Shown piece after piece: positions 36,195-55,981 of a DNA stretch of 64,000 bases (its first letter is position 1; every line of letters begins with the position of its first letter). This stretch comes from Candidatus Thorarchaeota archaeon (lineage in GTDB: Archaea > Asgardarchaeota > Thorarchaeia > Thorarchaeales > Thorarchaeaceae). The stretch lies in assembly GCA_019057475.1 (NCBI GenBank), contig DXJO01000022.1, positions 1 to 64,000 of the forward strand. Direction: 5' to 3'. The notes below the pieces were generated by a model. The model made no database searches. It was not told the DNA's origin and saw nothing but the letters and a program-made list of their open reading frames with translations. Made by a program: the position numbers and the translations under genes.

Positions 36195-36632
36195 ATGACT
36201 GAAGTGTCCGATCGACCTCGAGTGCTAAAAGCAATCAAGAAATGCATCTCTGACGCTCACGAGCATTTCCAGGAGGCTATGGACGCGCTGGATGAGATAG
36301 GTCGCGCGTCACTTGCGACGGGGATGACATCACTCTTCGGAGGATACCAGTTGAAAGACCCGAAGAGAAAATACCGAATAGCAAGAATAGAGATTAAGGC
36401 CGCAGAGAAGGCTCTTTTTCCGCTCACCAAACGATTTCGTGATGGCAGAGTCAATGCAGAGCACTTCAAAGATGAGAAGGCATTGTCGCTTCTGAAGGAC
36501 CTGACTGAATTCGACTACCAAATACTAATCAGACTCCTATGGGAACACAAAGGCAGAGAATCGGCATGGTATCGATTGGAGGAGCTCAGCAATAAAGCCA
36601 AGGCAGTCTTTGAAAAAGTTGCAGACCTATAG
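36195..36632 (+). CDS. Duplicated helical protein, copy A, function unknown
   Basis: A 145-residue soluble, basic, almost all-helical protein with no membrane segment. It starts MTEVSDRPRVLKAIKKC and has conserved blocks A-H-E-H-F-Q-E-A-M-D, AEKALFPLTKRFRDGRVNAE, and LLKDLTEFDYQILIRLL near the C-terminus. Its family was not recognised. It follows dppF by 58 bases. Copy B downstream has the same ends but a different middle (residues 35-75), as if the central helix pair had been under different selection or been replaced. Confidence 0.78.
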   Translation: MTEVSDRPRVLKAIKKCISDAHEHFQEAMDALDEIGRASLATGMTSLFGGYQLKDPKRKYRIARIEIKAAEKALFPLTKRFRDGRVNAEHFKDEKALSLLKDLTEFDYQILIRLLWEHKGRESAWYRLEELSNKAKAVFEKVADL

Positions 36633-36640
36633 AACATATC

Positions 36641-36705
36641 ATGGGCGGAGGTCACTATGTGGCATGCCACTTTGCTGGCGAGCTTGGTGAGCCGGCCAAC
36701 CTATA
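36641..36705 (+). pseudogene. Remnant of the dppF 3' end
   Basis: Twenty-one codons of the dppF C-terminus with the stop changed from TAG to TAA, created by the tandem duplication. There is no start or ATPase domain, so it is non-functional as coding sequence. Nucleotide differences from the parent are mostly synonymous, in keeping with purifying selection on the parent and drift in the remnant. Confidence 0.85.
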
Positions 36706-36764
36706 AACCTCAACTCGCTCTTAGGCGACACACACGAAGACTCACGCTATCGTGAGGCGTTCAT

Positions 36765-37202
36765 ATGACTGAAGTGTCCGATCGACCTCGAGTGCTAAAA
36801 GCAATCAAGAAATGCATCTGTGACGCTCACGAGCATTTCCAGGAGGCCATGGATGCGCTGGATGATAAAACTCGCTGGTCACTTCGTCCGGTGTTGACGT
36901 CAATCTTCGGAGGGTACCTAACAAAGAACCGGAAGGCAAACTACCATAAGGCAAGTATGGAGGTTGCGCTGGCAGAGAAGGCCCTCTATCCGCTCACCAG
37001 ACGATTTCGTGATGGCAGGGTCAATGCAGAGCACTTCAAAGATAAGGAGGCCTTGACGCTTCTAAAAGACCTGACTGAATTCGACTACCAGGTACTTATC
37101 AGACTCCTATTGGAACGTAAAGGGAGAGAATCTGCATGGTATCGATTGGAGGAGCTCAGCAAGAAAGCCAAGGCAGTCCTTGAAAAAGTTGCAGACATAT
37201 AG
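36765..37202 (+). CDS. Duplicated helical protein, copy B, function unknown
   Basis: A 145-residue paralogue of the gene at 36195. The first 34 residues differ by only one or two changes. Residues about 36-75 are largely different (T-R-W-S-L-R-P-V-L-T-S-I-F-G-G-Y against A-S-L-A-T-G-M-T-S-L-F-G-G-Y), and the last 65 residues are about 90 percent identical. Both reading frames are intact, which suggests that both proteins are used. Function unknown. Confidence 0.78.
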   Translation: MTEVSDRPRVLKAIKKCICDAHEHFQEAMDALDDKTRWSLRPVLTSIFGGYLTKNRKANYHKASMEVALAEKALYPLTRRFRDGRVNAEHFKDKEALTLLKDLTEFDYQVLIRLLLERKGRESAWYRLEELSKKAKAVLEKVADI

Positions 37203-37302: not shown

Positions 37303-37980
37303 ATGAGTAGTGCGCCTGTCGGGAAATCCCTGAAACATAATCTTGAGAGAACAATTCGTGTAATGGAGAACATCTCTCACTCGCTGACCCTCATGGAAAG
37401 ACACCTGACATCATTGGAGAACTCACACCTAATGAAAGACCTCATCACTGAGGGCGAGTATGTCGTCGGAAATTTACCTGGGGTCATTTGCATTCCCTCG
37501 ACTCTGAAGCAAAATGACCCACTGCAGCCAGCACTGAATCAAATGAAGGCGAGAGGGCGTAGGATGCCTTCGATGATTAGACTAGGTGACTCCATGGAAT
37601 CCGTGGAAACATGTGACAAGGTCGTGAGAATAATCAAATCCGAGATCTTGCCAGCATTGGATGACAGTGCGTTCGTAGTCAATCTCAGATGGGATGAAAT
37701 GATTAGTCCTTTTGAATCCAATCGTACCATAGTCATAGGAAAGAGGTATAGCAAGGGCTCTAGGAAACGATTCAAGCGCTTGGAGAGGACTCTTGGAGAA
37801 CTCGGTGTGCACGTATTGTCTGACAGTGGAGAGTACGGAGGGGGACCACTGGTTTATGCCATTACGAGAGCATTGCCGACTAAAACCAATCTGCTGGTAT
37901 TCGAACTTACGCTATCGATGTCTGTGGCGTGCGAACCCAACATCGTGACACAGATACTTGAATCTCTCCAAGGACACTAG
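37303..37980 (+). CDS. Protein of unknown function upstream of the GCS2-like gene
   Basis: A 225-residue soluble protein. An N-terminal helical region (residues 1-50, coiled-coil-like) is followed by an alpha/beta domain with VVGNLPGVICIPSTL, VVRIIKSEILPALDDSAFVV and TIVIGKRYSKGSRKRFKRLE. The ending (LLVFELTLSMSVACEPNIVT) looks like a core strand and helix. No family was recognised. Its stop lies 10 bases before the start of the large ligase-like gene, so it is almost surely co-expressed and probably works with it. Confidence 0.72.
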   Translation: MSSAPVGKSLKHNLERTIRVMENISHSLTLMERHLTSLENSHLMKDLITEGEYVVGNLPGVICIPSTLKQNDPLQPALNQMKARGRRMPSMIRLGDSMESVETCDKVVRIIKSEILPALDDSAFVVNLRWDEMISPFESNRTIVIGKRYSKGSRKRFKRLERTLGELGVHVLSDSGEYGGGPLVYAITRALPTKTNLLVFELTLSMSVACEPNIVTQILESLQGH

Positions 37981-37990
37981 GTGCTTAGAT

Positions 37991-40900
37991 ATGACAGAGG
38001 AAACGGCTGGTACAGAGGAAATGCAATTGCCGTTTCCACATGGTATCGAGGTTGAACTCCAGGTCATCATGAGAGATGGAAACTGGTTCCGCGGGGAGGA
38101 GATCCTGGAAGTATTCGATAGGCTGGTGTCCAGCGCGAAGAACCTGCTTGACAAGAGGATTAGAGCGGCAAGTGTGCCCTCAGTTAGAAGCAAGTATAGG
38201 CACTCATCGCAAACTGAGGAAGGTGAGCGTGGTTCCAGAATCGTAGTGAATTACGAGGACCCAGCAGGGGAGGCAAAGGAATACACCATTATCGGCCATG
38301 ACCCGAATGTCACGAGCCTGACGTGGATACTCGAAGTGGCAACACCCCCATGCACAACACTAGAAGAACTTGCCTGGTGGGTTCAGACACTCATCGCAAT
38401 CTCATATGATGCTCTACCCAAGGACATGTATGTGCTGCTCATTTCAACTGGCCTGAATCCCACTCAGGAATACATGAGGAATCTCTCATTTGGAGAACAT
38501 CATCATATCCTCAGTCCCGAGATCGAAGAGAGTTCACGCCTCGCGGTCTACAATATGATCCGAAACTTCACTCCTCATCTAATTGCGTTGTCCGTGAATT
38601 CCCCATTTGAAAACAAGAAGTCCACAGACGAGGTCTATATCGACTCAGAAGGAAGAACACGCGCTCCAAGATGCAAGAGATCAATCAGACTTCTCAAGAA
38701 CACCACACAGATGGGACCCACAAATAAATTCGAGCTCATACCATACATGAAGAAACCAGACAAGGAATTCTTTGCAAAGCATGTTAATCGTAGCTTCGCA
38801 AGAATGGTAGATATGTACCCGTTCACGGATTATGGTACAATAGAAGTAAGAGTCTTTGACACACAGTTATCAGTCCCTCGAAGGGTCGGTATCGCCTTGA
38901 TCTTGCAGGCGCTCGCCCTGAAGGCGATACGACTGTCCGCGAAAGGTGTGCCTATTCCAGATATGGGCGCCAAGTCGATTGCTGCCAACAGGGCTTCTGC
39001 TGTTGCGGCCGGTCTATGGGGACCGTTCCATCCGGGAGAGGACAGTAAGAATCTGGAGTTCATAGAGATCTACAACCATCCAATTAACGATGATGGAACA
39101 TTGGACAATACACGGCGAAATCGATTCATGGGAGATGCTGTTGCTTCGATGCTCTATCTCATCAGAGATGAGCTCGAAGACATGAGAGCGATTGATAACC
39201 CATTCATGCAGCCCTTGATGGTTTCGGTGTTTGGGAGCGAGTTCGTGGAGCCGAGAACTACATGTGCAGACTACCAGCTTGATGTCTACGCGAAATCAGA
39301 ACAAAACATGGTCACATTACTTGGACGCCTAGGAAGTATCACTAGGGAATGCTGTACCAATTGGCTTTACGACCCGCTGGAAGGAGTCCCACGACTTCCA
39401 ACCTGGCTTTGTTGGTGGAAGGGTCTCGAGCCGGAGATCATAACTGATAAGGAGAGGATCTTCGCGGGTCAAGAAGCAGGATTCGACTTATCTATCCGAA
39501 ATCGAACCGACCGAGACCTTCACAATCTCACTGTATCCTACAGGATAGAAGATTCTGAAAGAAATGTCATAGAACAGAACATCCTGCCAATCTCAAGAAT
39601 CGAATCAGGCGAGATTCATGTCGCTCGGATCACATTCCCAACTAAGCGTCAGGTCCATGCCTACAACATCATTGCATCAATCGGTGTCGCTGGCAAGGAA
39701 ATCAACCTGAGAAGCACTATCAATACATACTGGATGACAGCAAGCGTCAAGCCTGCTACAACCACACAGTTTGCCGATAGCAGGACTCCAATCCTGTTTT
39801 CTGGTGAGATAGACACGAACTACCCCACAAGGACTACAGTCACTTGCGAGATTGCAGTGATTAGCCCAAAGAAAGAAACTGTCATTGCCAATGTGTACTA
39901 CCCTGTTGTCGTTGAGGGAGGAGACCTTCTCTTCTTTGAGTCGTCTGACCTGCCACCTCTGGTAGTATCTGCAGAAGCCTCCAAAGGGGTCGAAAGATGC
40001 GTTCTGCGAATTAGATTGATTGATCATGATAAGAGTACAATCGCACTTAGCACGTCGAAGCCCTTCTACATTGGTTTTGTAAGACGAGGCCCAGAAATAA
40101 CCATCCAAGCGAATCTCAAAGGAACACACAGTCCTGGGGGGATTCTTCAAGGCGAGGTGGTGCTCAAAGCCGGACAACACGAAATGCCTAAGGGTTCAAG
40201 ATTGATTGTTCATTACAAGACAGATACAGGGGACACGCACGTAGTAGCGGAGGCCGATGCTTGGGAAGCTGTATCGAGCCCGCTCAAATTCGATTGGCAG
40301 ATTCCGCCAGCAGATCCGGGAATGCTGGCGCGAAGAACTGCGTCCATCCGAGCATCACTGGTTTCCAATGGAATGGAGATTGCATCGAGTGAATCTGATG
40401 CCTTCATAGTGGCTCATGTCGAGGTCAGAACCAGCATTGATTCGCTGAAGGCGCCAGACAGATCCCAGATAGGCGGCATGGTGGCAGGTTGGCTCAGAAT
40501 AAGACGCAACACGGAACAGGGAGAGCCTGCCACTTTGACTATGTCTTTGCGATTCACAGATGATGACGAACACATTGTCTTGAATCAAGCTGTCAAGCAA
40601 AGCAGGAACCTGTCTCTTGCGTATGGGCCATTTACCATACCTGAACCGAGAACGAAGAATGTGCCGTCAAGCGTCACTCTTGTGGCCAAGCTAGACTATG
40701 CAAATGCTCAGATGGACTGCAAGACAGCAGAAATATCGCTTGTCGCCATGGATGAAACCAGACCTGCTAGTCTGAACTTCAGCGGAGTCCCAACATATGT
40801 TTCTCCTGATGACCAAGTTCATGCTGCGATTCACGTCACCAACTCATCTGCTGAAGCTATGAAAGGAATGCTGTCGGTGCGTCTTGAGTCGGTAATTGGA

Positions 40901-41428
40901 ACGGAGGAAGTATTCATTCGGGAGATTGATCTAGCGGCTGAGGAAACTCGCGTCTTCGCGATTCCTGTGAGAATACCTTTGAGTGCGGAAATGAGCACAG
41001 CGCATCTGAAAGCAGCCTTGCGTCTGGAAACCATGCTTCTGGAAAAAAGGCATAGATTCAAGGTGAAAGCGATTGAAGAACCACTCTTTCATGTGCGTTT
41101 CTCCATCAAGGATGACAGGGGCCAGGAGATACCGGGCCTTGTTCCGCGTGAGTCAAATATCGTGATTGGGGTTCATGTTCAGGTCGTTAAGCGAGGTTTG
41201 GAAAACTTGATGGTTTCTCTGCGCGTGATGTCCAAAAGAGAAGTGGTAAGGGAATTCCGAATGCCGATCCCCGAATCTGAAACTGCGTTCAAGTCTGAGG
41301 TTCGTTGGACCACCCCCAAGTTGGAAACCATAACGGGGTACTACTTGGATGCAGCAATCATTCACGGAGAGATATCATTGCCTACGCGCGCGGTTAAATG
41401 CGAAAAGAAGACCTTCGCGGTATACTAG
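37991..41428 (+). CDS. Glutamate-cysteine-ligase-like (GCS2) enzyme fused to a long beta-sandwich region
   Basis: From ATG 37991 (AGGTG 7 bases upstream) a 1145-residue protein. Residues 15-480 show the carboxylate-amine ligase pattern of the GCS2/YbdK family: PHGIEVELQVI, the central FGEHHHIL, ALSVNSPFENK and YGTIEVRVFDTQ. Such enzymes join an amino group to a glutamate-type carboxylate using ATP. From about 490 to the end there are five or more Ig-like/CARDB-like beta-sandwich units (for example FAGQEAGFDLSIRNRTDRDL, YVSPDDQVHAAIHVTNSSAE, LVPRESNIVIGVHVQVVKRG). There is no signal peptide, so the sandwiches are probably cytosolic. This fusion is not one I know. The upstream gene is closely linked. 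Confidence 0.8.
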   Translation: MTEETAGTEEMQLPFPHGIEVELQVIMRDGNWFRGEEILEVFDRLVSSAKNLLDKRIRAASVPSVRSKYRHSSQTEEGERGSRIVVNYEDPAGEAKEYTIIGHDPNVTSLTWILEVATPPCTTLEELAWWVQTLIAISYDALPKDMYVLLISTGLNPTQEYMRNLSFGEHHHILSPEIEESSRLAVYNMIRNFTPHLIALSVNSPFENKKSTDEVYIDSEGRTRAPRCKRSIRLLKNTTQMGPTNKFELIPYMKKPDKEFFAKHVNRSFARMVDMYPFTDYGTIEVRVFDTQLSVPRRVGIALILQALALKAIRLSAKGVPIPDMGAKSIAANRASAVAAGLWGPFHPGEDSKNLEFIEIYNHPINDDGTLDNTRRNRFMGDAVASMLYLIRDELEDMRAIDNPFMQPLMVSVFGSEFVEPRTTCADYQLDVYAKSEQNMVTLLGRLGSITRECCTNWLYDPLEGVPRLPTWLCWWKGLEPEIITDKERIFAGQEAGFDLSIRNRTDRDLHNLTVSYRIEDSERNVIEQNILPISRIESGEIHVARITFPTKRQVHAYNIIASIGVAGKEINLRSTINTYWMTASVKPATTTQFADSRTPILFSGEIDTNYPTRTTVTCEIAVISPKKETVIANVYYPVVVEGGDLLFFESSDLPPLVVSAEASKGVERCVLRIRLIDHDKSTIALSTSKPFYIGFVRRGPEITIQANLKGTHSPGGILQGEVVLKAGQHEMPKGSRLIVHYKTDTGDTHVVAEADAWEAVSSPLKFDWQIPPADPGMLARRTASIRASLVSNGMEIASSESDAFIVAHVEVRTSIDSLKAPDRSQIGGMVAGWLRIRRNTEQGEPATLTMSLRFTDDDEHIVLNQAVKQSRNLSLAYGPFTIPEPRTKNVPSSVTLVAKLDYANAQMDCKTAEISLVAMDETRPASLNFSGVPTYVSPDDQVHAAIHVTNSSAEAMKGMLSVRLESVIGTEEVFIREIDLAAEETRVFAIPVRIPLSAEMSTAHLKAALRLETMLLEKRHRFKVKAIEEPLFHVRFSIKDDRGQEIPGLVPRESNIVIGVHVQVVKRGLENLMVSLRVMSKREVVREFRMPIPESETAFKSEVRWTTPKLETITGYYLDAAIIHGEISLPTRAVKCEKKTFAVY

Positions 41429-44432: not shown

Positions 44433-44774
44433 TGCCATCCTTCTCCTACTTGGGCGTTTAGCCTCATAAAGATGCAGGCTTGTGGCACTGCACAAATTGC
44501 CATGGAATTGGAACCCTGCTATGATTGAGAGCCTGCATTGTTGGTAGCCTGCAGAAGAACTGAAGTGCGACCTTTCCCCCGGAATGACCCGTGTCTATTC
44601 TTTCCTCTCATTAGGAGAAAACCCATTCCCGCCGAAATGGCGCCGTGATAAACGAAACTTCATATGGATTCGCGCGATAGAATCACTAGGGAATGGGGGG
44701 TTAAACCCGCTTCCGTGGTTGAATCACACGTAGAGTGTGTGGATAGGAGAAATAAGAAATTGCAAATAGATTTA
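44433..44774. other. Divergent intergenic region, no other gene seen
   Basis: 342 bases between two divergent genes if the shorter starts are used. It holds both promoters. AAATAAGA (about 44748-44755) is placed to give a nearly leaderless SPFH transcript. No hairpin or repeat stands out. Confidence 0.4.
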
Positions 44775-45590
44775 ATGATGTTCACATTCGCGATTGTACT
44801 ACTCGCGTTCTTTGCGTTGATGTTCATCGCAAGCGGCATTAAGGTGCTGAAAGAATGGGAGAGAGTAGCCATACTCAGACTTGGCAAGTTCAAGCACATC
44901 AAGGGGCCTGGAATTATTTTCGTTGTGCCAATGCTTGATAAGATTGCAATGAAGGTCTCTCTCAGGCTTCTGACCTACGCTTTCAAGACTGAACGGTCTT
45001 TGACAAAAGACAATGTTCCGGTCGTCGTTGATGCGGTGATGTACTTCCGTGTCATAGATGTGGAGAAGGCGATTCTGACCGTCGAGAGATACGCTGTGGC
45101 GGTCGAACTCGCGGCACAGACCACGTTACGAGAAACTATCGGCAAAATCACTCTTGACGAGCTGCTCTCTGAGAGAGATCAGATTGCAGAGCACATGCAG
45201 GAACTCATCGACGAGAAAACTGAGCATTGGGGAGTTAAAGTAACAGCGGTAGAGATTCGTGATGTCGTCATCCCGTCGGCACTGCAGGACGCAATGAGCA
45301 GAGAGGCACAGGCTGAGAGGGAGCGCAGAGCGCGAGTCACACTAGCTACGGCCGAGCTCGAGGCTTCCGAGAATATGCTTCAGGCGGCCAAGAAGTACGA
45401 GCAGTCTGAGGTTGGCTTGGTTCTGCGGACTTGGAATATTATGCAAGAAATATCCAAGAACGCCAACCTGATTATCATGGTGCCAGCCACAATACCGGAG
45501 GTTGGATTGACAGCTGCTACAGCGGTAGCGTTGAGCGCTGGAACCGGTGGCATAAAGATGCCGAAGGACAAGGGGATGGTGCAGAAATAG
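44775..45590 (+). CDS. SPFH/stomatin-family membrane protein
   Basis: A 271-residue protein from ATG 44775: one membrane helix (FTFAIVLLAFFALMFIASGI), the SPFH domain (WERVAILRLGKFKHIKGPGI, NVPVVVDAVMYFRVIDVEKA, LRETIGKITLDELLSERDQI), then a coiled-coil helix rich in A/E/R. Stomatin-like proteins form ring or raft assemblies that control membrane proteases. The frame remains open to ATG 44664, adding 37 residues not seen in the family, so I prefer the start next to the membrane helix. It precedes an NfeD-like gene by 22 bases, the classical stomatin/NfeD pair. Confidence 0.9.
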   Translation: MMFTFAIVLLAFFALMFIASGIKVLKEWERVAILRLGKFKHIKGPGIIFVVPMLDKIAMKVSLRLLTYAFKTERSLTKDNVPVVVDAVMYFRVIDVEKAILTVERYAVAVELAAQTTLRETIGKITLDELLSERDQIAEHMQELIDEKTEHWGVKVTAVEIRDVVIPSALQDAMSREAQAERERRARVTLATAELEASENMLQAAKKYEQSEVGLVLRTWNIMQEISKNANLIIMVPATIPEVGLTAATAVALSAGTGGIKMPKDKGMVQK

Positions 45591-45612
45591 ACACGGTCTG
45601 TGTCATAATGAG

Positions 45613-46326
45613 GTGGACAAGATAGACGCTTGGATTAAGATATTCATCGTGCTTGTGATGCTGTCAGCGTTGAGCTTGGTCGTAGGATATATGATCCACG
45701 ACCCATTCGTGGGATTGATTCTCCTAGCGGTCATCCTCACTCTCTTAGTTGTCACAGTCGAGCCGGCCACTGGAAAGGCGATGGCACAGGTGACGATTCC
45801 TATCGTCATCATTCTGTTTGTATTCCAGATCGTTCTGAACCCATCCTTCCAATTTGAGATCTGGATGCTGATCGTCGTAGGGGCAATCCTCTACTTGATG
45901 TTCACTCTCTTCACTGGAGGAGGCGCGCTCGAGGGGAGTCTGATTGATGCGAAGATGTCGCTGAAACTGTTTCCGATTTACGGCTTAGCGATATTGCTAG
46001 CGTCAATCGCAGATCCGTCGAACAGAACAACTGCCATCATGATGGCCGTTACTATCGGGGGGATGATGGTGCTCTACTGGGTATTCCTGAGGGACTACGA
46101 AGAGTGGCCAGAGGTCACCTATGGACCCACCAGTGTGATTGCTCTGACGGATTTGAATCCGCGAGGCAAGGTGAAGACGGGAGCCGAAGTTTGGTGGGCA
46201 AAGGCCACAGACCCCCCGATACAGGCAGGAGAGCGTGTCATGTTTCGGGGAGTCAGCGGGCTCACGATGGTCGTTTCAAGGTACAAAGACGATCAGGACT
46301 CAGAACACGAGTCAACCAACGATTAG
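45613..46326 (+). CDS. nfeD: NfeD-like membrane protein with C-terminal OB domain
   Basis: A 237-residue protein. About five membrane helices (residues 8-165) are followed by an OB-fold domain (VIALTDLNPRGKVKTGAEVW, GERVMFRGVSGLTMVVSRY), the NfeD hallmark. NfeD proteins bind stomatins through this barrel, and the SPFH gene lies directly upstream. No ClpP-like protease domain is attached, so this is the short membrane class. The start is GTG 45613. A hairpin terminator follows at 46333. Confidence 0.88.
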   Translation: MDKIDAWIKIFIVLVMLSALSLVVGYMIHDPFVGLILLAVILTLLVVTVEPATGKAMAQVTIPIVIILFVFQIVLNPSFQFEIWMLIVVGAILYLMFTLFTGGGALEGSLIDAKMSLKLFPIYGLAILLASIADPSNRTTAIMMAVTIGGMMVLYWVFLRDYEEWPEVTYGPTSVIALTDLNPRGKVKTGAEVWWAKATDPPIQAGERVMFRGVSGLTMVVSRYKDDQDSEHESTND

Positions 46327-47405: not shown

Positions 47406-48590
47406 TTGTCGAATGCTCGTAGACTATTGTTGGAGTTCGAAACGGAAGAGGTTGGCGTTCGTGCCAGAGACAATGCGAAGATGAGAAAAGCCCTAGTTCG
47501 TGCATTTTCAGACCCCTCAGAAATTGTTAGGGAACGAGCTTTGATTGCGGCGATTGACCTTGGAGACGCCAGCATTGTGACGGATATCAGGGCACCGTTG
47601 GATGATGATAATGCGGACGTTCGCGTTGCAGCAGCTCAGGCATTGGCCTGGTACCATCAACCAAGAACTATTCCGGCTCTGATTCACGGCCTGAAGGATT
47701 CAAACACTTGGGTGAGGTCACACTGTGCACTAGGCCTTTCCAAGTTGCTCCACGGCCCGATATGGGCACGGATTCCCGGAGAGGACATAGACATCATCCA
47801 CGCGGACTTTCCTGAAATGGATGAGGACAACATCAGGATATTTCTCCACAAACTGGAGCTCTCCGAGGAAGCAGTAGACCAATTCATAATGTGGAAAAGC
47901 GCGAAGTTCGAGATTGAGATTGACGAGAGCATTTTGATTAAGGAAACTGAAGGAAAACCAATCATCCTTTCAGCTGCAATGACCGAAGGCGCCGAACCAG
48001 TAAGAGATTCTGGCCTCTCTGAGGAAGTGGAAACGATCTTGAGCGAACTGCCAGATGAAGTCAGAGCGTCATTGCCTTCCGAAGACCTTCGCAGATTGAC
48101 CCCCTCAACTGCGAGGGAGCTTGTCACCTCATTGACCGCCAAAAAACCCAAGAAAAAGGCTGTCAGAGTCAAGCGGGTGAAGAGGGTACGCAAGAAGAAG
48201 AAAAAGCCTCTCGCTCGCGAGCAGCTCATTGAGAAGATACCAGCCGAGGTTCGAGAAACCGTTTCTGAGGACGTTCTCGAATCCCTAAGTACTGATGAGC
48301 TTGAGGCACTAGTTGCTGCAACACCTGAAGTAGAGGAAGCTGAACCCGCTGTAGAGGAGCCTGAGAAAAAGAAACGGAAGAAGAAGTCCGGTGAGGCACT
48401 TCCGCCCGTCGATGAGGAAGCGATCGAGGATCTGCGGTGGCAGGGATTCGTTGACAAATATGGCGAGGAAAAAGCCGACTTGCTTATCACGGTATCTCCA
48501 GAAATGCTTGAAGGTATTCCTCAGGAGCAGATTGCTGACATGGACATGGACACTCTCAGGAGCTTGATCCAAGCATTGGAACCTCGATAG
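47406..48590 (+). CDS. HEAT-repeat protein with basic linkers and three 30-residue repeats
   Basis: A 394-residue protein from TTG 47406 behind AAGGAGAG. Residues 10-115 are HEAT-like (VRERALIAAIDLGDASIVTD; VRVAAAQALAWYHQPRTIPA; VRSHCALGLSKLL). A lysine/arginine-rich linker (KKPKKKAVRVKRVKRVRKKK) and a second (EKKKRKKKSG) separate three copies of a helical unit: LPDEVRASLPSEDLRRLTP, IPAEVRETVSEDVLESLST and VSPEMLEGIPQEQIADMDM, each followed by an L-x-x-L-(V/I)-x-x-L helix. The layout suggests a scaffold that binds nucleic acid or several partners. It is convergent with the VWA gene, with stop codons 8 bases apart. Confidence 0.8.
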   Translation: MSNARRLLLEFETEEVGVRARDNAKMRKALVRAFSDPSEIVRERALIAAIDLGDASIVTDIRAPLDDDNADVRVAAAQALAWYHQPRTIPALIHGLKDSNTWVRSHCALGLSKLLHGPIWARIPGEDIDIIHADFPEMDEDNIRIFLHKLELSEEAVDQFIMWKSAKFEIEIDESILIKETEGKPIILSAAMTEGAEPVRDSGLSEEVETILSELPDEVRASLPSEDLRRLTPSTARELVTSLTAKKPKKKAVRVKRVKRVRKKKKKPLAREQLIEKIPAEVRETVSEDVLESLSTDELEALVAATPEVEEAEPAVEEPEKKKRKKKSGEALPPVDEEAIEDLRWQGFVDKYGEEKADLLITVSPEMLEGIPQEQIADMDMDTLRSLIQALEPR

Positions 48591-48598
48591 GTGAATGC

Positions 48599-49804
48599 CT
48601 ATCCAGATCCCCGAATCACAACTGCGAACTCACTTGCTAGTTTACCATACCATTCTAGCAGGTCACGCATATTATCTACATGACGATAGATTCCGTTCCC
48701 ATACTGGGAGATGGCTAGCATCAGTTCTTCGTCAATTTCGCTGCGCTCTCCTAGTCCAATGCAATAGATGACCAAATTGACAGCCTCAGTGAAGCGCTCC
48801 TTCAACACTTTTAGTGGCGGGGGTCCAGATGTTGTCATTCCATCAGTAAGCAATATCAACATGGTTGGTTTCTTGGTATCGTCAAAAGCCTCGAGAATCT
48901 CGTGCGCTTTTATCAACGCGGAGCCCATGTCGGTCAGAGTGCCACCTTCTTCAACTTTGTCTACTACGTGAGTGCTGATTATCTGAAGGCCAAGTGCCTT
49001 TTCTCGGCCCGTGCATTCCACAAAAGGCTGAACTTCGCCTGTGTCGGAGCTGAGAAATGTCATCTCACTCACTTCCTTCTCGAAAGTAATGATACCAACC
49101 TTCTCACCATAACCCCTGCCGACTTTCTCAGCTAGGTATAGGAGGATAGCCATCGCAGCTGCTTCGGCACGGCTGACCATACTGCCCTCTTCAAACCGGT
49201 CAAGGAATGCCTGAACTTCCGGGTTATCACCCGCGAGGTCCTTCAGACCCTCCCGGGCATGCGCTATATCCTGAACTGGAACATCGGTGGTCTTCATTGA
49301 TCCACTAGTGTCAATACATAGTATTGCGTTGAAGGGTGTGGCTATGCCAACTGTCTTGAACTCATACCCGGTCTTCTCTCTCAATGCTTCAAAGGCAAGC
49401 TTTGCGAAGCTTTTCCCGGATAACAGCGGTCTGACATTCATTATCTCTACATTCGCATTCATCTCGGGCCAATTGAATGACATCCCCGGATAGACAAGCC
49501 GACCATCAATAATTTTCTCAAGAGACTTTACTCTTTCAGCTGCACGGGTGACCAAGTCATCTGTGTTGGCGTCTTCTGTAAGTGGCTTCAGACCGAACTC
49601 CACGTACTCTAGAGCTGTCATATCCTTATCATAGAGCGTTACTTCAACCATATCCGATTCCATAAGCAATGAAGCTTCCAGAATCAGTGTGTCAATCACA
49701 ATTTGGTCCGGAGGAACGTCCTTGCTCTTCCTAATCTCTGCAGCTCCCCAAAATGCAGATTGAGAGTCTTCAAAAACGACGATAGATCCCATCTCTGCGT
49801 TCAA
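48599..49804 (-). CDS. Cdc48-N-like barrel plus VWA domain protein, intact MIDAS
   Basis: From TTG 49804 a 401-residue protein. Residues 1-125 look like the Cdc48/p97 N-domain: a double-psi barrel (SIVVFEDSQSAFWGAAEIRK, then MVEVTLYDKDMTALEYVEF) and a second lobe (GRLVYPGMSF). From 157 there is a VWA domain with MIDAS residues D165, S167, S169, a T-L-T near 291 and D321 (LLTDGMTTSG). In-frame sequence with barrel-like pattern (LRGYANLHPKTAKALNAEMG) continues about 38 codons upstream with no ATG, GTG or TTG. The real start is probably ATT 49894, or the gene is frameshifted near 49914. A TATA box lies at 49923-49930. It is the partner gene of the amidohydrolase at 49951. Confidence 0.82.
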   Translation of the reverse strand: MNAEMGSIVVFEDSQSAFWGAAEIRKSKDVPPDQIVIDTLILEASLLMESDMVEVTLYDKDMTALEYVEFGLKPLTEDANTDDLVTRAAERVKSLEKIIDGRLVYPGMSFNWPEMNANVEIMNVRPLLSGKSFAKLAFEALREKTGYEFKTVGIATPFNAILCIDTSGSMKTTDVPVQDIAHAREGLKDLAGDNPEVQAFLDRFEEGSMVSRAEAAAMAILLYLAEKVGRGYGEKVGIITFEKEVSEMTFLSSDTGEVQPFVECTGREKALGLQIISTHVVDKVEEGGTLTDMGSALIKAHEILEAFDDTKKPTMLILLTDGMTTSGPPPLKVLKERFTEAVNLVIYCIGLGERSEIDEELMLAISQYGNGIYRHVDNMRDLLEWYGKLASEFAVVIRGSG

Positions 49805-49922
49805 AGCTTTAGCAGTCTTAGGATGAAGATTGGCGTAGCCTCTTAGGTCGCCACCGTCAACGATTTCAAGTTTCGCCTTCTTAGTGATGGCAATAGCCTC
49901 CGCTACAAGTTTCCCGTCCTCA

Positions 49923-49930
49923 TTTTATAA
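49923..49930 (-). promoter_or_regulatory. TATA box of the Cdc48N-VWA gene
   Basis: TTATAAAA on the minus strand predicts a transcript start near 49901, next to GGAGG (49901-49897). This makes the ATG at 49923 unusable from this promoter and supports initiation further in. Confidence 0.5.
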
Positions 49931-49950
49931 AGAATTGTGAGGTACTAAGG

Positions 49951-51450
49951 TCATCCAAGCATGGACTCAATCGCAGATGTGAATTCTTTGGGGGTTGAAA
50001 AGAGCTTCGAGTTGCTTGTCAGGTCAGTTGAGAGAATGGGGTGCTTCTTCTGTTGCGCCAACTCAGTAGAGAGCATAGTGGCCTTTTCGTAGTCGTTCAG
50101 GATGATGCAACTAATCATGTCATTGGGGTGCGATTTCACCCAGACTATGAATTCACGCGCATCATCTCGCGTTCGTAATGTCATGAAGTAGGAATCAAAG
50201 TATATGCCGTTGTCGCCCCCCGCAGACATCGGCCGCAGGTCAGGCCATGTCCTTTTGGGGGGCAGCATGTAGTCCACAGAGGCGAGATTTAGTGCACCCT
50301 CTGCTATCTTTGCGATAAGGCTAGTTTCCAATACTGAACGTGCAGACTTTTTCTTCTGTGTGCATGTTAGCATTTGGGGGTTCTCATGAGCCATACGCTT
50401 TGTTCGGAATGGCGTTCCAACGAGGGACAATGCGTTGCCTCCAAGGATCCTCTGAATGTCACTGAGAGACCCCAAGAAATCCCTAGATAGAAGGTGTAAA
50501 ATCACATCGGCGGCTTGGACTGAGAGAAAGCTGTAGTCCGTGCCGAAAAGAAATTTCTCTGACCAATGAAAACCGGCATTTGCCAGCATATCGGTGGCTG
50601 TGCGAAACAGAACAGGAACATCCTGATCATGAAGGGTTGAGGTTTCTCCATAGATGACAGGGTCTCTCAGCAGCTCGTGGAAATGGGGGTCTCCAGGACT
50701 CATCCCGCAATGAGCCAAAATAATTTTCAAACCTTTCATTGCTTTTGCATACTTTTGCTCGTTTCGCATGGCTTCGACCATGGCATGTATCCGTCGCGCC
50801 GTTTTTACGTTCCGAGTGTCGAATATAATTGGAACCTTCAGCTCGCCAGCCTTTCTCACGACACGTAGAGTCATTTCATCTTCGATTTCTTCAACGAAAA
50901 GCTGTGCTACCGGATGCAGCTTAAGACCCCTAAGTCCGAGCTTTGTTACTGCGCGATTAAGCTCTCGGACTGCTGCGGTTCTAGACCTCAGAAAGTCTTT
51001 TGGGTCAACTCTTGCGAAACCAATCAGCCGAGTTGAGTGAGGAGCACGAGTGGTCCATCCCGCGATTTTATCATTTGATACCTTGAAGGAAGCCCCCTTG
51101 CCTTCCTCTAGGTAGTCATCTGTGAAGGGAAAGACAATGGTTCTGTCTACAAGCCATCCATGATTAAGTCGCGCCCAACTCTTCCGACTGGAGAAACATT
51201 TGGAGGGTAGGTTGGAAGGCACCACATCCACGGGTTCGAACAAGAGTGCATCACTCTCTTTCAGGTCCTTGACCATGCGCTGCATTTCAAACCAGAGCAG
51301 AGCGTAAAACTCGTACGCGCCAGGAGGTGTGTTTGTGTGTCCTTTCTCGCGACCCATATGGTGATGCGCGTCTACGATATACAGCCTGAACTTCTGTCCC
51401 TTCTTGATGCCTTTCTCAGGCTGGTCCTCAATCGCTCGAACTACGAGCAT
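49951..51450 (-). CDS. Amidohydrolase (TIM-barrel, Amidohydro_2-like) with C-terminal extension
   Basis: A 499-residue protein. Metal ligands of the amidohydrolase superfamily are visible: H29 and H31 in VDAHHHMG, H179 in LRGLKLHPV, H247 in IILAHCGMSPG, and D305 in LFGTDYSFL. The family includes decarboxylases and hydrolases of small carboxylates. After the barrel (ending near 345 with ILGGNALSLVG) comes a 150-residue alpha/beta extension with ALNLASVDYMLPP and REFIVWVKSHPND. The start is ATG 51450. It lies 147 bases upstream of the Cdc48N-VWA gene on the same strand. The divergent 887-residue protein carries a degenerate copy of this whole protein, including the extension. Confidence 0.85.
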   Translation of the reverse strand: MLVVRAIEDQPEKGIKKGQKFRLYIVDAHHHMGREKGHTNTPPGAYEFYALLWFEMQRMVKDLKESDALLFEPVDVVPSNLPSKCFSSRKSWARLNHGWLVDRTIVFPFTDDYLEEGKGASFKVSNDKIAGWTTRAPHSTRLIGFARVDPKDFLRSRTAAVRELNRAVTKLGLRGLKLHPVAQLFVEEIEDEMTLRVVRKAGELKVPIIFDTRNVKTARRIHAMVEAMRNEQKYAKAMKGLKIILAHCGMSPGDPHFHELLRDPVIYGETSTLHDQDVPVLFRTATDMLANAGFHWSEKFLFGTDYSFLSVQAADVILHLLSRDFLGSLSDIQRILGGNALSLVGTPFRTKRMAHENPQMLTCTQKKKSARSVLETSLIAKIAEGALNLASVDYMLPPKRTWPDLRPMSAGGDNGIYFDSYFMTLRTRDDAREFIVWVKSHPNDMISCIILNDYEKATMLSTELAQQKKHPILSTDLTSNSKLFSTPKEFTSAIESMLG

Positions 51451-51563
51451 GTGTTCTTCGCTCCTCTAGGTAGGAGATACATCAAATGCTCGACATAAAC
51501 CATTGCGTGAGATACATTCATCTGATATTTCATCTTGGAAGACGTGACACGAGGTAAGACTCG

Positions 51564-54227
51564 ATGCTTGTGGCTGAAGACATTGCGGCAAACGAGATAA
51601 GACGGTTCTTTGTAGTGGACGCGTCACTTCATCTCGGGTCAGTTAGAGTCGGCACGACTCTCAGCACATTCGACCCCGCAAGAGCCTTTACATACTTTGG
51701 CGCTCTTGAGAATCAATTGATAGAATACGCGTCCCGCTTCTCCGAGTCATTCCAATACATTCCACGGCGAGCTTATAGCTACTTGAAGCATCCGCCTATC
51801 CTCTCAAGCTTGTGCCAGAGCACGCTAGAGGAACCTGAGTCCAGCTGGTTGGTCGACCAATTCTTGACATGTCCACTCATCAGTGTGGGACATACATCAC
51901 TTCCTAAAGCAGAACAGATGAAAAACACAAAGTCGATTCAGGAATGGTCCATGGGCCCCCCGTATGGTCCCAGATTGTACCATATCCAGGATATGCGTCA
52001 CGGACGTCACACCCGCTCCGGTTGGGGGTGCATAATGAAAGCTGCCGACCTCGGGCAACGCATGGAGGAAACGAATCTCAACGACCTTGATGGTTATATC
52101 CAGATGGGGCATCCAGTATTTGTGGAAATGGATGAGCCGGATGACATTGACATTGTATTGAAATGGCTCATTACCCTAAAGGAAGCAGGACACAAAAGAC
52201 CATCATTGCTGCTTGATCCAAGAGCTCACAAGGATTGGAACGCAGGAATCACAAGGCTAGTTGATATCCCAAGGAGCAGGATTCTGACTTCAGGAGCCAC
52301 TATCTCATCGCTCTCGACCCTTGTGCGGCACCTCAGGAAAACCAGCATAGAAGCAGATTGGTCATCAAGACTAGTTTTCGCCACCCGTTATCCTGAAACA
52401 CAGAGCGGAGATGGCGTTTCAGAGATTCTAAGCTATCTACTGAGTAAGAACCTGGCGGCCAGTCCACAAGAACTCCAGAGAGTGCTTGGTGGGAACATCT
52501 TGTCCATGATGCCTCCAAGACCGTCGTTCCTTTCTTATGCTGATAATGACTCTGCAGTTGTTGCAGAGGGACACCTAGGCAAGGCATCGCTAAACGAGAT
52601 TGCGCGCATCCTCCGATTGGTGGTTGGTCGCAGACTTCAGAGCGTCGCTTCGGTTGATTACATGATCGGAAATGATGGAGGAGTCGTGCACCTAGATGGC
52701 GCATTGGTAACTCTCACGACACCATCGACGAATACAGCTACTAGTATGGCAATAATCCTCGAGAGGAATGGTTCCTTGAAGCTCGTAGGATGGAAGCGTA
52801 CATTCACAGATACACTGCATACTAGGAACAGCGAGGCATTTTCCACACTTGCTAGATCAATAGCAATGTCAGATGGACTCATTTTGAGTTCTCCCTCCCA
52901 AATGACGCGGTTCGACCAAGCTGTGATGAGCTGCTTGCAAGTTAAGAACCCGCAGGAAATCTTGTCGGCTCTGCATTTCCAAATGGACATTGCTGACTAT
53001 GAACAGGGAGCGATTCTCGTTTCTCCTGACGATATGCGCGCGCTCAACGTCAGCGAGGGGGACCATTTGCTTGTGCTTGACACCGCAACAACCCGATGGT
53101 GGATCGGCAAGGCTGTGATGGACGAAGAACACCCGAGGAAGCGGATAGGAATCTCTTCGCAAGATGCGATGCTTGGGGGTTTCACTGAATCAAGAAATGT
53201 TGACCTCGCCAAAACTGAAAGGAAGGTAGTCAATCTTGGCGAAACGGTCCTTTCATTTGACAATGCGGATGGCCCCCCAAATGGAGAAACCTCTGCATCA
53301 TTGCATCTCCGAACTGATACTGTCAGAAGGATGTTGCATAATAGGTTCGTTGGCAAAGGTATGAAGTTCAGTATTGGAAACGGAGGGCACGAAATCTGCC
53401 TTACGTTCGCGCAATCCAGCCCCAGACTAGATCCGAGCCAGATCGGTCGCATGAATGGCGCGTCGATTCGATTCCAACCGTCCCAATCACTCAGGGAGTT
53501 CAATGTGATTATCAGTGTTTCAGCAGATCAGAATATGCGAATACGAGACATCACGCTAAAATCAAAGTACTCGATCCAATCTAGGCTCGAACCATTAGTA
53601 GAGAGGGTCCCAGAGCTAGGAGCCTTCTTGAGTGGCCTTGGTGACACAATTACAAGAGCTGAGCTAGCCGCCCTGTTTTCGTTACTTGTCGTGAGCACAA
53701 TTGCGGACAATCGCACTGGAGGGCGTCTAGGTATTGTCACAGTCACTGTTCCAGCTCAGAAGTTTTCTGTTCAGAAGAGAGGTGTTGTCCAGTCATTTGT
53801 GGAATTTCGGGAGGACCTATCTTCCGAGGAAGTCCTGATTTCCATGGTCTATTCAATACTTGATACCTTGCGACAATCCGTGCAAGCGGTCAGCATAGCA
53901 GATGGTTACAGAGCCGTTGCAGAAATGTTGGAGGATTTCGGTCCTGAACGACCGACCCTAGTGATGATTCTTGGAAGTGATGTGGATGATGACCATGGAA
54001 GACCCTTCCTTCGAGCGATAGCTGAAAGCGAGAGGTGTTTGTTTGACTTCATGGGACTTGGTATGACTTTTGATGAGAAGAAAGCGCTGCAAGTGTTTGA
54101 CGGTATTGTCGGAGGAGTCTACCCAATCACTTCATTCTCAACACGCGCCTTTGACGACTATCTACTTGGGGCAATCGACCACGTTGTGCCAATCGTTGAA
54201 GAGCCAGAATTTAAGGGAAATCAATAG
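51564..54227 (+). CDS. Fusion of pseudo-amidohydrolase, Cdc48-N-like barrel and degenerate VWA domain
   Basis: An 887-residue protein starting at ATG 51564. Residues 10-420 align with the neighbouring amidohydrolase (VDASLHLG for VDAHHHMG; LQRVLGGNILSM for IQRILGGNALSL; LQSVASVDYMIG for ALNLASVDYMLP), but the ligands are lost: H29 to S21, H247 to S243 (ILTSGA), D305 to R275 (FATRYP). Residues 480-625 are a Cdc48-N-like barrel (GAILVSPDDMRALNVSEGDH; RFVGKGMKF). Residues 645-875 align with the VWA protein at 48599 (VPELGAFLSGLGDTITRAE for NPEVQAFLDRFEEGSMVSRA), yet the MIDAS is gone (IISVSADQNM for LCIDTSGSM). It is probably an inactive scaffold bringing both active paralogues together. Its stop overlaps the next convergent gene by 17 bases. 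Confidence 0.82.
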   Translation: MLVAEDIAANEIRRFFVVDASLHLGSVRVGTTLSTFDPARAFTYFGALENQLIEYASRFSESFQYIPRRAYSYLKHPPILSSLCQSTLEEPESSWLVDQFLTCPLISVGHTSLPKAEQMKNTKSIQEWSMGPPYGPRLYHIQDMRHGRHTRSGWGCIMKAADLGQRMEETNLNDLDGYIQMGHPVFVEMDEPDDIDIVLKWLITLKEAGHKRPSLLLDPRAHKDWNAGITRLVDIPRSRILTSGATISSLSTLVRHLRKTSIEADWSSRLVFATRYPETQSGDGVSEILSYLLSKNLAASPQELQRVLGGNILSMMPPRPSFLSYADNDSAVVAEGHLGKASLNEIARILRLVVGRRLQSVASVDYMIGNDGGVVHLDGALVTLTTPSTNTATSMAIILERNGSLKLVGWKRTFTDTLHTRNSEAFSTLARSIAMSDGLILSSPSQMTRFDQAVMSCLQVKNPQEILSALHFQMDIADYEQGAILVSPDDMRALNVSEGDHLLVLDTATTRWWIGKAVMDEEHPRKRIGISSQDAMLGGFTESRNVDLAKTERKVVNLGETVLSFDNADGPPNGETSASLHLRTDTVRRMLHNRFVGKGMKFSIGNGGHEICLTFAQSSPRLDPSQIGRMNGASIRFQPSQSLREFNVIISVSADQNMRIRDITLKSKYSIQSRLEPLVERVPELGAFLSGLGDTITRAELAALFSLLVVSTIADNRTGGRLGIVTVTVPAQKFSVQKRGVVQSFVEFREDLSSEEVLISMVYSILDTLRQSVQAVSIADGYRAVAEMLEDFGPERPTLVMILGSDVDDDHGRPFLRAIAESERCLFDFMGLGMTFDEKKALQVFDGIVGGVYPITSFSTRAFDDYLLGAIDHVVPIVEEPEFKGNQ

Positions 54228-54504
54228 CATCAGAAATCGCGGCGAGTCTAGTTTCGAAGGATTGTGTTTTGCGCTCCAGTTTTTCCAGAGTCATGCGAAC
54301 TCCTTCTATTAGGGTAACCAGATTCGATAACGTTCCAGTGCCAGATTCGGATACCCCCCTCATGTGCACCTTCAAATGATTGTCTAGATCCTTAGTAACT
54401 AGAAACACCCTACCTGCAATCTCTTCAAGTGCTCTCAACCGATCTGCAGTCTGTTCCATCTGGTCAACCAATTCACTCAGATCTCCATCAGCCACATGAA
54501 TCAC
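54211..54504 (-). CDS. Small coiled-coil protein
   Basis: A 97-residue helical protein with heptad-like leucine/valine spacing (LSELVDQMEQTADRLRALEE; TLIEGVRMTLEKLERKTQSF). Its ATG overlaps the stop of the upstream coiled-coil gene by 4 bases (ATGA), so the two are translationally coupled and may form a hetero-oligomer. Last gene of the minus-strand cluster that starts with the VWA gene at 55981. Confidence 0.75.
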   Translation of the reverse strand: MIHVADGDLSELVDQMEQTADRLRALEEIAGRVFLVTKDLDNHLKVHMRGVSESGTGTLSNLVTLIEGVRMTLEKLERKTQSFETRLAAISDAIDFP

Positions 54505-54803
54505 CCTTGCAGATGGTCGTCGGTTTGCGCCAGTGCGCGCTCAAGAGTTTCCAGCCGCTTTGATAGACTTTCAAGACGCTCTACGACTTCGCTGAGTCTG
54601 ATGTCTATTTGACTTGATACAGACGCCTCGTGCCGTTCAGTCGTGTCTAGTGATGGGCGCACCTGAGGTTCGCCTGATAGCTTAGCTAGTCCATCTTCTA
54701 GGTCCGCCACAGTTTGGAGAAGGTCTGGAATGGACACTTTGTCGAGTCGTTTGTTAATCAAGATAAGTGCACGTTCGATCTTCTCAAGCTTGCGCGCGCT
54801 CAA
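54501..54803 (-). CDS. Small coiled-coil protein
   Basis: A 100-residue protein with two helices (KLEKIERALILINKRLDKVS; RLSEVVERLESLSKRLETLE) around a polar linker. The start is TTG 54803 behind GGAGG, 14 bases after the VWA gene stop. It couples to the next gene through ATGA. No known family. It is probably an adaptor or oligomerisation subunit of the VWA protein (inference from operon structure). Confidence 0.75.
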   Translation of the reverse strand: MSARKLEKIERALILINKRLDKVSIPDLLQTVADLEDGLAKLSGEPQVRPSLDTTERHEASVSSQIDIRLSEVVERLESLSKRLETLERALAQTDDHLQG

Positions 54804-54817
54804 ACAGATGCCTCCAT

Positions 54818-55981
54818 TCAGTATAGTCGTGTCTTGTAGATTTCATGTGCTAATGGTTTGGAACCATACAGAACCTCTACTCTAATGTTAGCTTTTCCTT
54901 TCTCATCCGACATTGGTACAAGCTTCAGCGTAATCTTCTGATCAGACCTGGGACCGACCTCATGCTTTTCATTGGTGACCTCAGACACTGAATCACCAAC
55001 GACAATTGAAACGATAACCCGAATTCCAACAGTGACTTGACTTGGGTTGACAATCCTGATTCGGTAATTAAACGCTTTGCCCCCAACAAGTGCATCAGGC
55101 ACCGCTCCGAGGTCCACAGACAACCCTAGATGGTCAGATGTCAGAGGTCGTCCCTTTGGCCATCTTGTGATTCGCCCCAGCTCTTGTAGTCTTGAAAGCG
55201 ATGTTTTGAGAACCCTCAACTCCAGGCCAAGCTCTTCTGCAGCTTCAGCCAGATCAAAGCTCCCATCATGGCGTTCATAAAACAAGAGGATGCGTCTGTC
55301 CTCCTCAATGAGATCGCCAACACTCTCAAGAATCTCCAAGATTGCTTCAGGCAGTTCATCAGCCTCACGAAGAGAGAAGTATCTTCCACTTTCTACGAAT
55401 TCTGCAATGCTTCTAAACGACGTTTCCACCAGGGGATTGCAGCCACATACAAACGGAAAGAATGTGGTACCGAAGTTGTCCTTCATGGCCTTAAGCTCAG
55501 CCTTTGGATCATAGCCCTTGGGACATCCATCGGGAAAGTAATCGTCACCTAGTGAATTGTAGTCCGTTCCATGTGGCGGCGCATCGCCCACTAGGAGGAG
55601 AACTTTGTACGCATCATTCGACCATGAAAGCTTTGTGCGGGCATCGAACAGTCCATCTGCCACAGCCTCAGGAGTATCACCACCTTCGGATGGCTTCAGG
55701 TCAGATATCTGGCGATGCACCTTTTTCATTTGGTCAGTGAAGTCAAAGACGCGTGTCACGTAGGTGCGGTCTTGAGGGGGATGATCCCTGTACGATACTA
55801 TTCCGAACCGAATTCTCAGGTCTTTGGTGCGAGTCACAACCTTATCCACGATGTCGAAGAGACTATCCTTGACTGCGCGGATGTCATCCTTCATGCTTCC
55901 TGTGGTATCAACTACAAAGGCAACGTCCAGCTTCGCAGGGGGCACCCCTATCGTCTCCTGCCGGACGAGAGAATTAGCCAC
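54818..55981 (-). CDS. VWA-domain protein with winged-helix and beta domain
   Basis: A 387-residue protein. The N-terminal VWA domain has an intact MIDAS (D25-x-T-x-S29 in FVVDTTGSMKDD; the G-G-D-T-P loop; L-L-V-G-D-A-P-P-H-G) and resembles the VWA of alpha-kinase-type proteins (SYRDHPPQ; FPFVCGCN). Residues about 230-275 form a winged helix (FDLAEAAEELGLELRVLKTS; LQELGRITRWPKG). Residues 290-387 form a beta-sandwich (FNYRIRIVNPSQVTVGIRVI). It heads a three-gene minus-strand operon with two coiled-coil genes. It is not closely similar to the VWA gene at 48599. Confidence 0.85.
   Translation of the reverse strand: MANSLVRQETIGVPPAKLDVAFVVDTTGSMKDDIRAVKDSLFDIVDKVVTRTKDLRIRFGIVSYRDHPPQDRTYVTRVFDFTDQMKKVHRQISDLKPSEGGDTPEAVADGLFDARTKLSWSNDAYKVLLLVGDAPPHGTDYNSLGDDYFPDGCPKGYDPKAELKAMKDNFGTTFFPFVCGCNPLVETSFRSIAEFVESGRYFSLREADELPEAILEILESVGDLIEEDRRILLFYERHDGSFDLAEAAEELGLELRVLKTSLSRLQELGRITRWPKGRPLTSDHLGLSVDLGAVPDALVGGKAFNYRIRIVNPSQVTVGIRVIVSIVVGDSVSEVTNEKHEVGPRSDQKITLKLVPMSDEKGKANIRVEVLYGSKPLAHEIYKTRLY

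Follow-up and report, generated by a model that had tools for sequence, protein, structure and literature searches.

A long-maintained, predicted non-catalytic paralogue of an amidohydrolase and a Cdc48N-VWA protein in Thorarchaeia, and the ligase-containing Asgard gene set beside it

A 64,000-nucleotide stretch from the 3.34 Mb genome of a Candidatus Thorarchaeota archaeon (assembly GCA_019057475.1, contig DXJO01000022.1, positions 1 to 64,000; hereafter the window) contains three adjacent genes, one of which encodes a protein resembling both of its neighbors in a single chain. This 887-residue fused protein, FUS (51564..54227, plus strand), is a predicted pseudoenzyme. Of its neighbors, AMH (49951..51450, minus strand) encodes a hydrolase of the Amidohydro_2 family with all metal ligands present, and VWA (48599..49888, minus strand) encodes a 429-residue protein that combines a Cdc48N-like barrel with a VWA domain whose metal-ion-dependent adhesion site (MIDAS) is intact. 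FUS is tentatively interpreted here as an old, selected and non-catalytic paralogue of the AMH-VWA pair, which may bind the same partners as a scaffold or competitor, with the pair itself working together with a ligase; taken as a whole, this interpretation is given slightly less than an even chance.

The homology of FUS to both neighbors is evident from profile-profile comparison, in which residues 7-457 match the AMH profile (hhalign probability 99.9, E 2.4e-34) and residues 468-859, comprising a double-psi/Cdc48N-like region and a degenerate VWA domain, match the VWA profile (probability 100, E 1.2e-40). Judged by these profiles, both matches lie far beyond chance, and they bear out the alignment reported in a first-pass annotation of the window, which had placed the two regions at residues 10-420 and 480-875. 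No family scored above the cut-off for FUS in Pfam, and none was named by NCBIfam. In the window copy, four of the five barrel ligands are lost in the profile alignment (AMH H29 to FUS S21, H179 to A160, H247 to P219, and D305 to R275); the fifth, H31, is retained as H23, a residue lost in most relatives. The MIDAS positions are all gone, with D193, S195 and S197 of VWA replaced by S653, D655 and N657, T319 by V777, and D349 by S805. The N-terminal half, homologous as it remains, does not carry the amidohydrolase metal site (HxH, H, H, D) and would not be expected to be catalytic; the C-terminal half lacks the DxSxS, T and D of a MIDAS. The earlier claim of ligand loss thus stands overall, including S21, R275 and the MIDAS, except that its pairing of H247 with S243 was a misalignment, as H247 pairs with P219 and S243 with S271. 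All FUS copies in Thorarchaeia are degenerate at the ligand sites; those of Jordarchaeia are partly so, with HxH still present in some copies and the beta-8 Asp absent. The predicted structure of FUS (predicted local distance difference test score 87) shows an alpha/beta barrel-type N-terminal half, a double-psi barrel and a VWA fold, in agreement with the architecture first proposed. No TIM-barrel matches occur among the best 50 Foldseek matches, which are occupied by p97 and DEPDC5, and the assignment of the N-terminal half as a barrel is based on the AMH profile match and the predicted model rather than on that list.

Both neighbors retain their ligands, as had been noted from the window alone. 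AMH matches PF04909 (E 3.1e-13), and its HxH, H, H and D ligands are complete in 34 of 34 aligned copies. It shares with the ACMSD-like Amidohydro_2 proteins the barrel with these ligands, but differs from them in an extra C-terminal region, and its sequence similarity to a solved structure (3nur, E 0.008) is no more than remote. In VWA, the most conserved member of the locus (77-94% identity across Thorarchaeia), DxSxS is present in 34 of 34 copies and the T and D in all 33 copies covering them, a truncated copy (L073) lacking that region. Pfam detects the VWA domain in the window protein. The CDC48_N profile (PF02359) matches 12 of 29 family members (best E 1.2e-9), the window copy not being among those listed; together with a fold match to the p97 N domain (5epp; template modeling (TM) score to target 0.72), it identifies the preceding region as a double-psi barrel. 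The archaeal VWA protein VWA2 of PDB 5a8j matches the VWA domain in sequence, but not the Cdc48N-like barrel. In Loki-type homologs of VWA (L152-L179), the chain is extended on the N-terminal side by one or two extra double-psi-like domains together with a proline-rich linker. Apparent AMH-VWA fusions in relatives (open frames of 950-975 residues) proved to be two frames parted by a stop.

FUS has a single, old origin. In separate trees of the AMH-like and VWA-like halves, all FUS sequences lie on one side of one branch (support 100/99 and 100/100), forming a Thor- and Jordarchaeia clade separate from every active copy; the trees have long branches, and their root is not fixed. Both trees exclude a recent fusion of the present neighbors. 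The original description of FUS as a fusion of inactive paralogues therefore needs to be divided: it is a selected, apparently non-catalytic paralogue of both proteins, but as an old clade it was not fused from these neighbors. Within the genus, dN/dS is 0.15-0.18 for FUS; its AMH-like half (0.12-0.15) is about as constrained as active AMH (0.10-0.15). These substitution ratios indicate a maintained protein under purifying selection, not a decaying gene. FUS occurs in all 41 Thorarchaeia genomes having AMH and in all eight genomes covered of the two Jord-type families; within Thorarchaeia it is absent only where AMH and VWA are absent too. A partial FUS in a Sigyn bin (G221) may be contamination, since that bin is 9% contaminated and its AMH falls inside the Jordarchaeia clade, and it was left out as a separate lineage.

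Across 231 Asgard genomes, the best co-occurring unit consists of AMH, VWA and a GCS2/YbdK-like carboxylate-amine ligase, joined in Thorarchaeia by a second VWA protein, VWA2 (54818..55981, minus strand; DxTxS intact). VWA was found in 128 genomes, AMH in 133 and both in 121, as expected from the proposed co-occurrence of the pair; a profile search found the ligase in 138, and all three occur together in 119. Pairwise phi coefficients are 0.83 for AMH-VWA, 0.83 for VWA-ligase and 0.92 for AMH-ligase. In other Asgard families, AMH, the ligase and VWA cluster together, the ligase being among the genes beside AMH and VWA in 14 of 19 loci. The three-gene module originally taken as complete had thus missed the ligase, whose gene in the window (37958..41428, plus strand; family profile match at 38003-39406) lies about 7 kb from the module. 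Its N-terminal part of about 485 residues represents the ligase and is followed by a long beta-rich C-terminal tail. The window protein alone scores 19.3 bits against a Pfam cut-off of 21, and reaches E 3.8e-138 against the family profile. The family matches YbdK structures by profile (1r8g, 1tt4; E ~1e-11) and retains ExE, HxH and ExR, features shared with YbdK/GCS2 ligases, from which it differs in the beta-rich tail of several classes and in its genetic partners, AMH and the Cdc48N-VWA protein. Immediately upstream of the ligase is a gene for a small protein, p225 (37303..37980, plus strand). By hhalign (probability 77, E 2e-5), p225 is weakly similar to the C-terminal part of the C2 protein that neighbors the ligase in other Asgard families. 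Five Jord-type genomes (G050, G066, G140, G141 and G143) carry FUS and a ligase copy on one contig, 7-18 kb apart.

Because these counts share ancestry, independent losses within Thorarchaeia carry more weight. AMH, VWA and VWA2 are absent from four lineages (G009, G015, G018, and the genus of G016 and G026). The lost genes occupied separate sites between retained DUF92-like, SPFH, HEAT and s203 genes, so a single deletion is insufficient to explain their joint loss. The ligase no longer stands at its usual position in G015, G018 and G016, and that of G009 (L205, 3017-5140) is truncated (708 versus 1156 residues) with altered TPPC, HxH and ExR motifs, apparently a second pseudoenzyme in the making. 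No p225 was found at the four inspected loci with a deleted or decayed ligase. FUS is gone in G016, and genus g11 has neither FUS nor the whole set; neither FUS nor the ligase was found in the G026 genome, where the locus stretch read stops before the ligase region. AMH, VWA, VWA2 and the ligase therefore behave as one unit, which FUS follows loosely.

With conserved ligase and hydrolase families in one unit, amide formation and cleavage are suggested. The GCS2-like ligase would make an amide bond using ATP, and AMH would hydrolyse that amide or a product related to it. The Cdc48N-VWA protein would serve as a Mg2+-dependent adaptor recognising a partner. FUS would most likely engage these partners by its AMH-like and Cdc48N/VWA-like surfaces but turn nothing over, acting as a scaffold or competitor. 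Two observations weigh against this interpretation: most Asgard genomes possessing the system have no FUS; and FUS is intact in G009, G015 and G018, which lack AMH, VWA, VWA2 and an intact ligase. In relative-rate tests for relaxed constraint on FUS after partner loss, its ratios (1.6-1.7) lie within the range of the controls (0.7-2.3). The persistence of FUS without its partners implies either another job in those lineages or recent losses. That FUS survives where its partners are lost makes a second role a serious rival, possibly one involving the SPFH proteins encoded near it in both Thor- and Jordarchaeia. In its strongest form, FUS would have a function that owes little to AMH and VWA, such as one at the membrane with SPFH/NfeD and HEAT proteins, and adjacency would reflect origin, not joint work. 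FUS and the HEAT gene do remain adjacent once AMH, VWA and VWA2 are gone, and an SPFH gene flanks FUS in Jordarchaeia genomes. This explanation is nevertheless judged rather unlikely, as FUS was found only in families possessing AMH and VWA, and in Thorarchaeia is never missing while the pair is kept and is gone together with the whole set in g11.

The obligate three-protein complex envisaged at first, with FUS as the organiser of active AMH and VWA and with a client delivered through the Cdc48-N-like barrel, would account for the adjacency of the genes in nearly all Thorarchaeia genomes having AMH and for a FUS domain order that parallels the gene order AMH-VWA. However, 90 other Asgard genomes contain AMH, VWA or both without FUS, and the ligase accompanies the pair more constantly; as FUS also occurs without the pair in the three lineages named above, such a complex is not supported, and we regard it as improbable. 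A living FUS, with changed chemistry or small-ligand binding in a remodelled barrel, is favored by the strong purifying selection that its AMH-like half experiences, by (nearly) invariant positions across FUS including D19, G25, D98, P184, W266, P277 and D283, and by the retention of H23 in the window copy. The former metal-ligand positions, however, vary freely among Thorarchaeia genera, unlike those of a reused active site, and this is likewise considered improbable. The description that suits FUS best is a pseudoenzyme with a regulatory and perhaps also a second role.

The gene layout provides additional details. VWA probably starts with an ATC (Ile) codon (49886..49888, minus strand, reading from 49888): an Ile codon occupies this position in 26 of 26 Thorarchaeia orthologues (the window and 25 loci; ATC in 21, ATT in 3, ATA in 2), codons 2-28 are under purifying selection, and a GGAGG Shine-Dalgarno sequence (49897..49901, minus strand) stands 8 nt ahead, as in nearly all of the 26. 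No ATG, GTG or TTG start is conserved among these orthologues, some of which have in-frame canonical codons nearby. The first TTG of VWA is at 49804, downstream of this probable start, and annotating the gene from there would cost 28 barrel residues. A TATA-box-like TTTATAA (49925..49931, minus strand), present at this junction in nearly all Thorarchaeia loci, probably gives VWA its own promoter. A HEAT-repeat protein gene (47406..48590, plus strand) is retained in 46 of 47 Thorarchaeia genomes and is not lost with AMH and VWA; upstream of it are the stomatin-type SPFH and NfeD genes (44664..46326, plus strand). Between FUS and VWA2, loci such as L045, L053 and L067 and other Thorarchaeia loci contain VWA', a VWA-like protein with a degenerate MIDAS, and a coiled-coil gene of about 390 residues; in the window, only the short coiled-coil-like open reading frames cc1 and cc2 (54211..54803, minus strand) are left in this interval, in the position of one or both. 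Two similar 145-residue open reading frames lie in tandem upstream of p225 (36195-37202). In G027 (contig C1), the AMH beside FUS is reduced to a 75-residue stub (556552), with 1.5 Mb separating it from the HEAT gene (2070937), a layout reflecting rearrangement or an assembly break within the module.

The closest structural likeness is to DEPDC5/Iml1, a GATOR1 subunit that ranks first among the Foldseek matches for each of the predicted models (VWA, E 1.9e-12; FUS, E 4.9e-11). In DEPDC5, the NTD is similar to NSF-N and the SABA domain to a Sec23 domain (PMC8534245). VWA appears to share the order of this NTD-SABA half, with an NSF/p97-N-like domain ahead of a vWA-like one; in contrast to DEPDC5, its chain ends directly after the VWA domain, and SHEN, DEP and CTD are therefore absent. 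Since the whole-length superposition is loose (TM score 0.44, root-mean-square deviation 8.7) and a PDB sequence search up to E 10 returned no DEPDC5 match, the modeled resemblance is best treated as a lead and not as membership. In the open-access literature, the individual families are known, but no described system of this composition was found, nor anything relevant on Asgard archaea with DEPDC5/GATOR1, on VWA with an amidohydrolase, or on this ligase.

A broader and doubtful extension is that Asgard archaea possess a make-and-break amide modification, formed by the ligase and removed by the amidohydrolase, with a p97-N/VWA adaptor that selects the target and may be related to DEPDC5 NTD-SABA, and with an old fused dead copy regulating it in Thor- and Jordarchaeia. 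The gene set itself is a co-inherited and apparently undescribed set of enzymes in many Asgard archaea, the archaea closest to eukaryotes. FUS appears to be a two-domain enzyme that has been maintained in dead form for a very long time. The natural knock-out lineages tell which parts of the set depend on each other. If the resemblance to DEPDC5 reflects real descent, it would be relevant to how nutrient signalling arose in eukaryotes.

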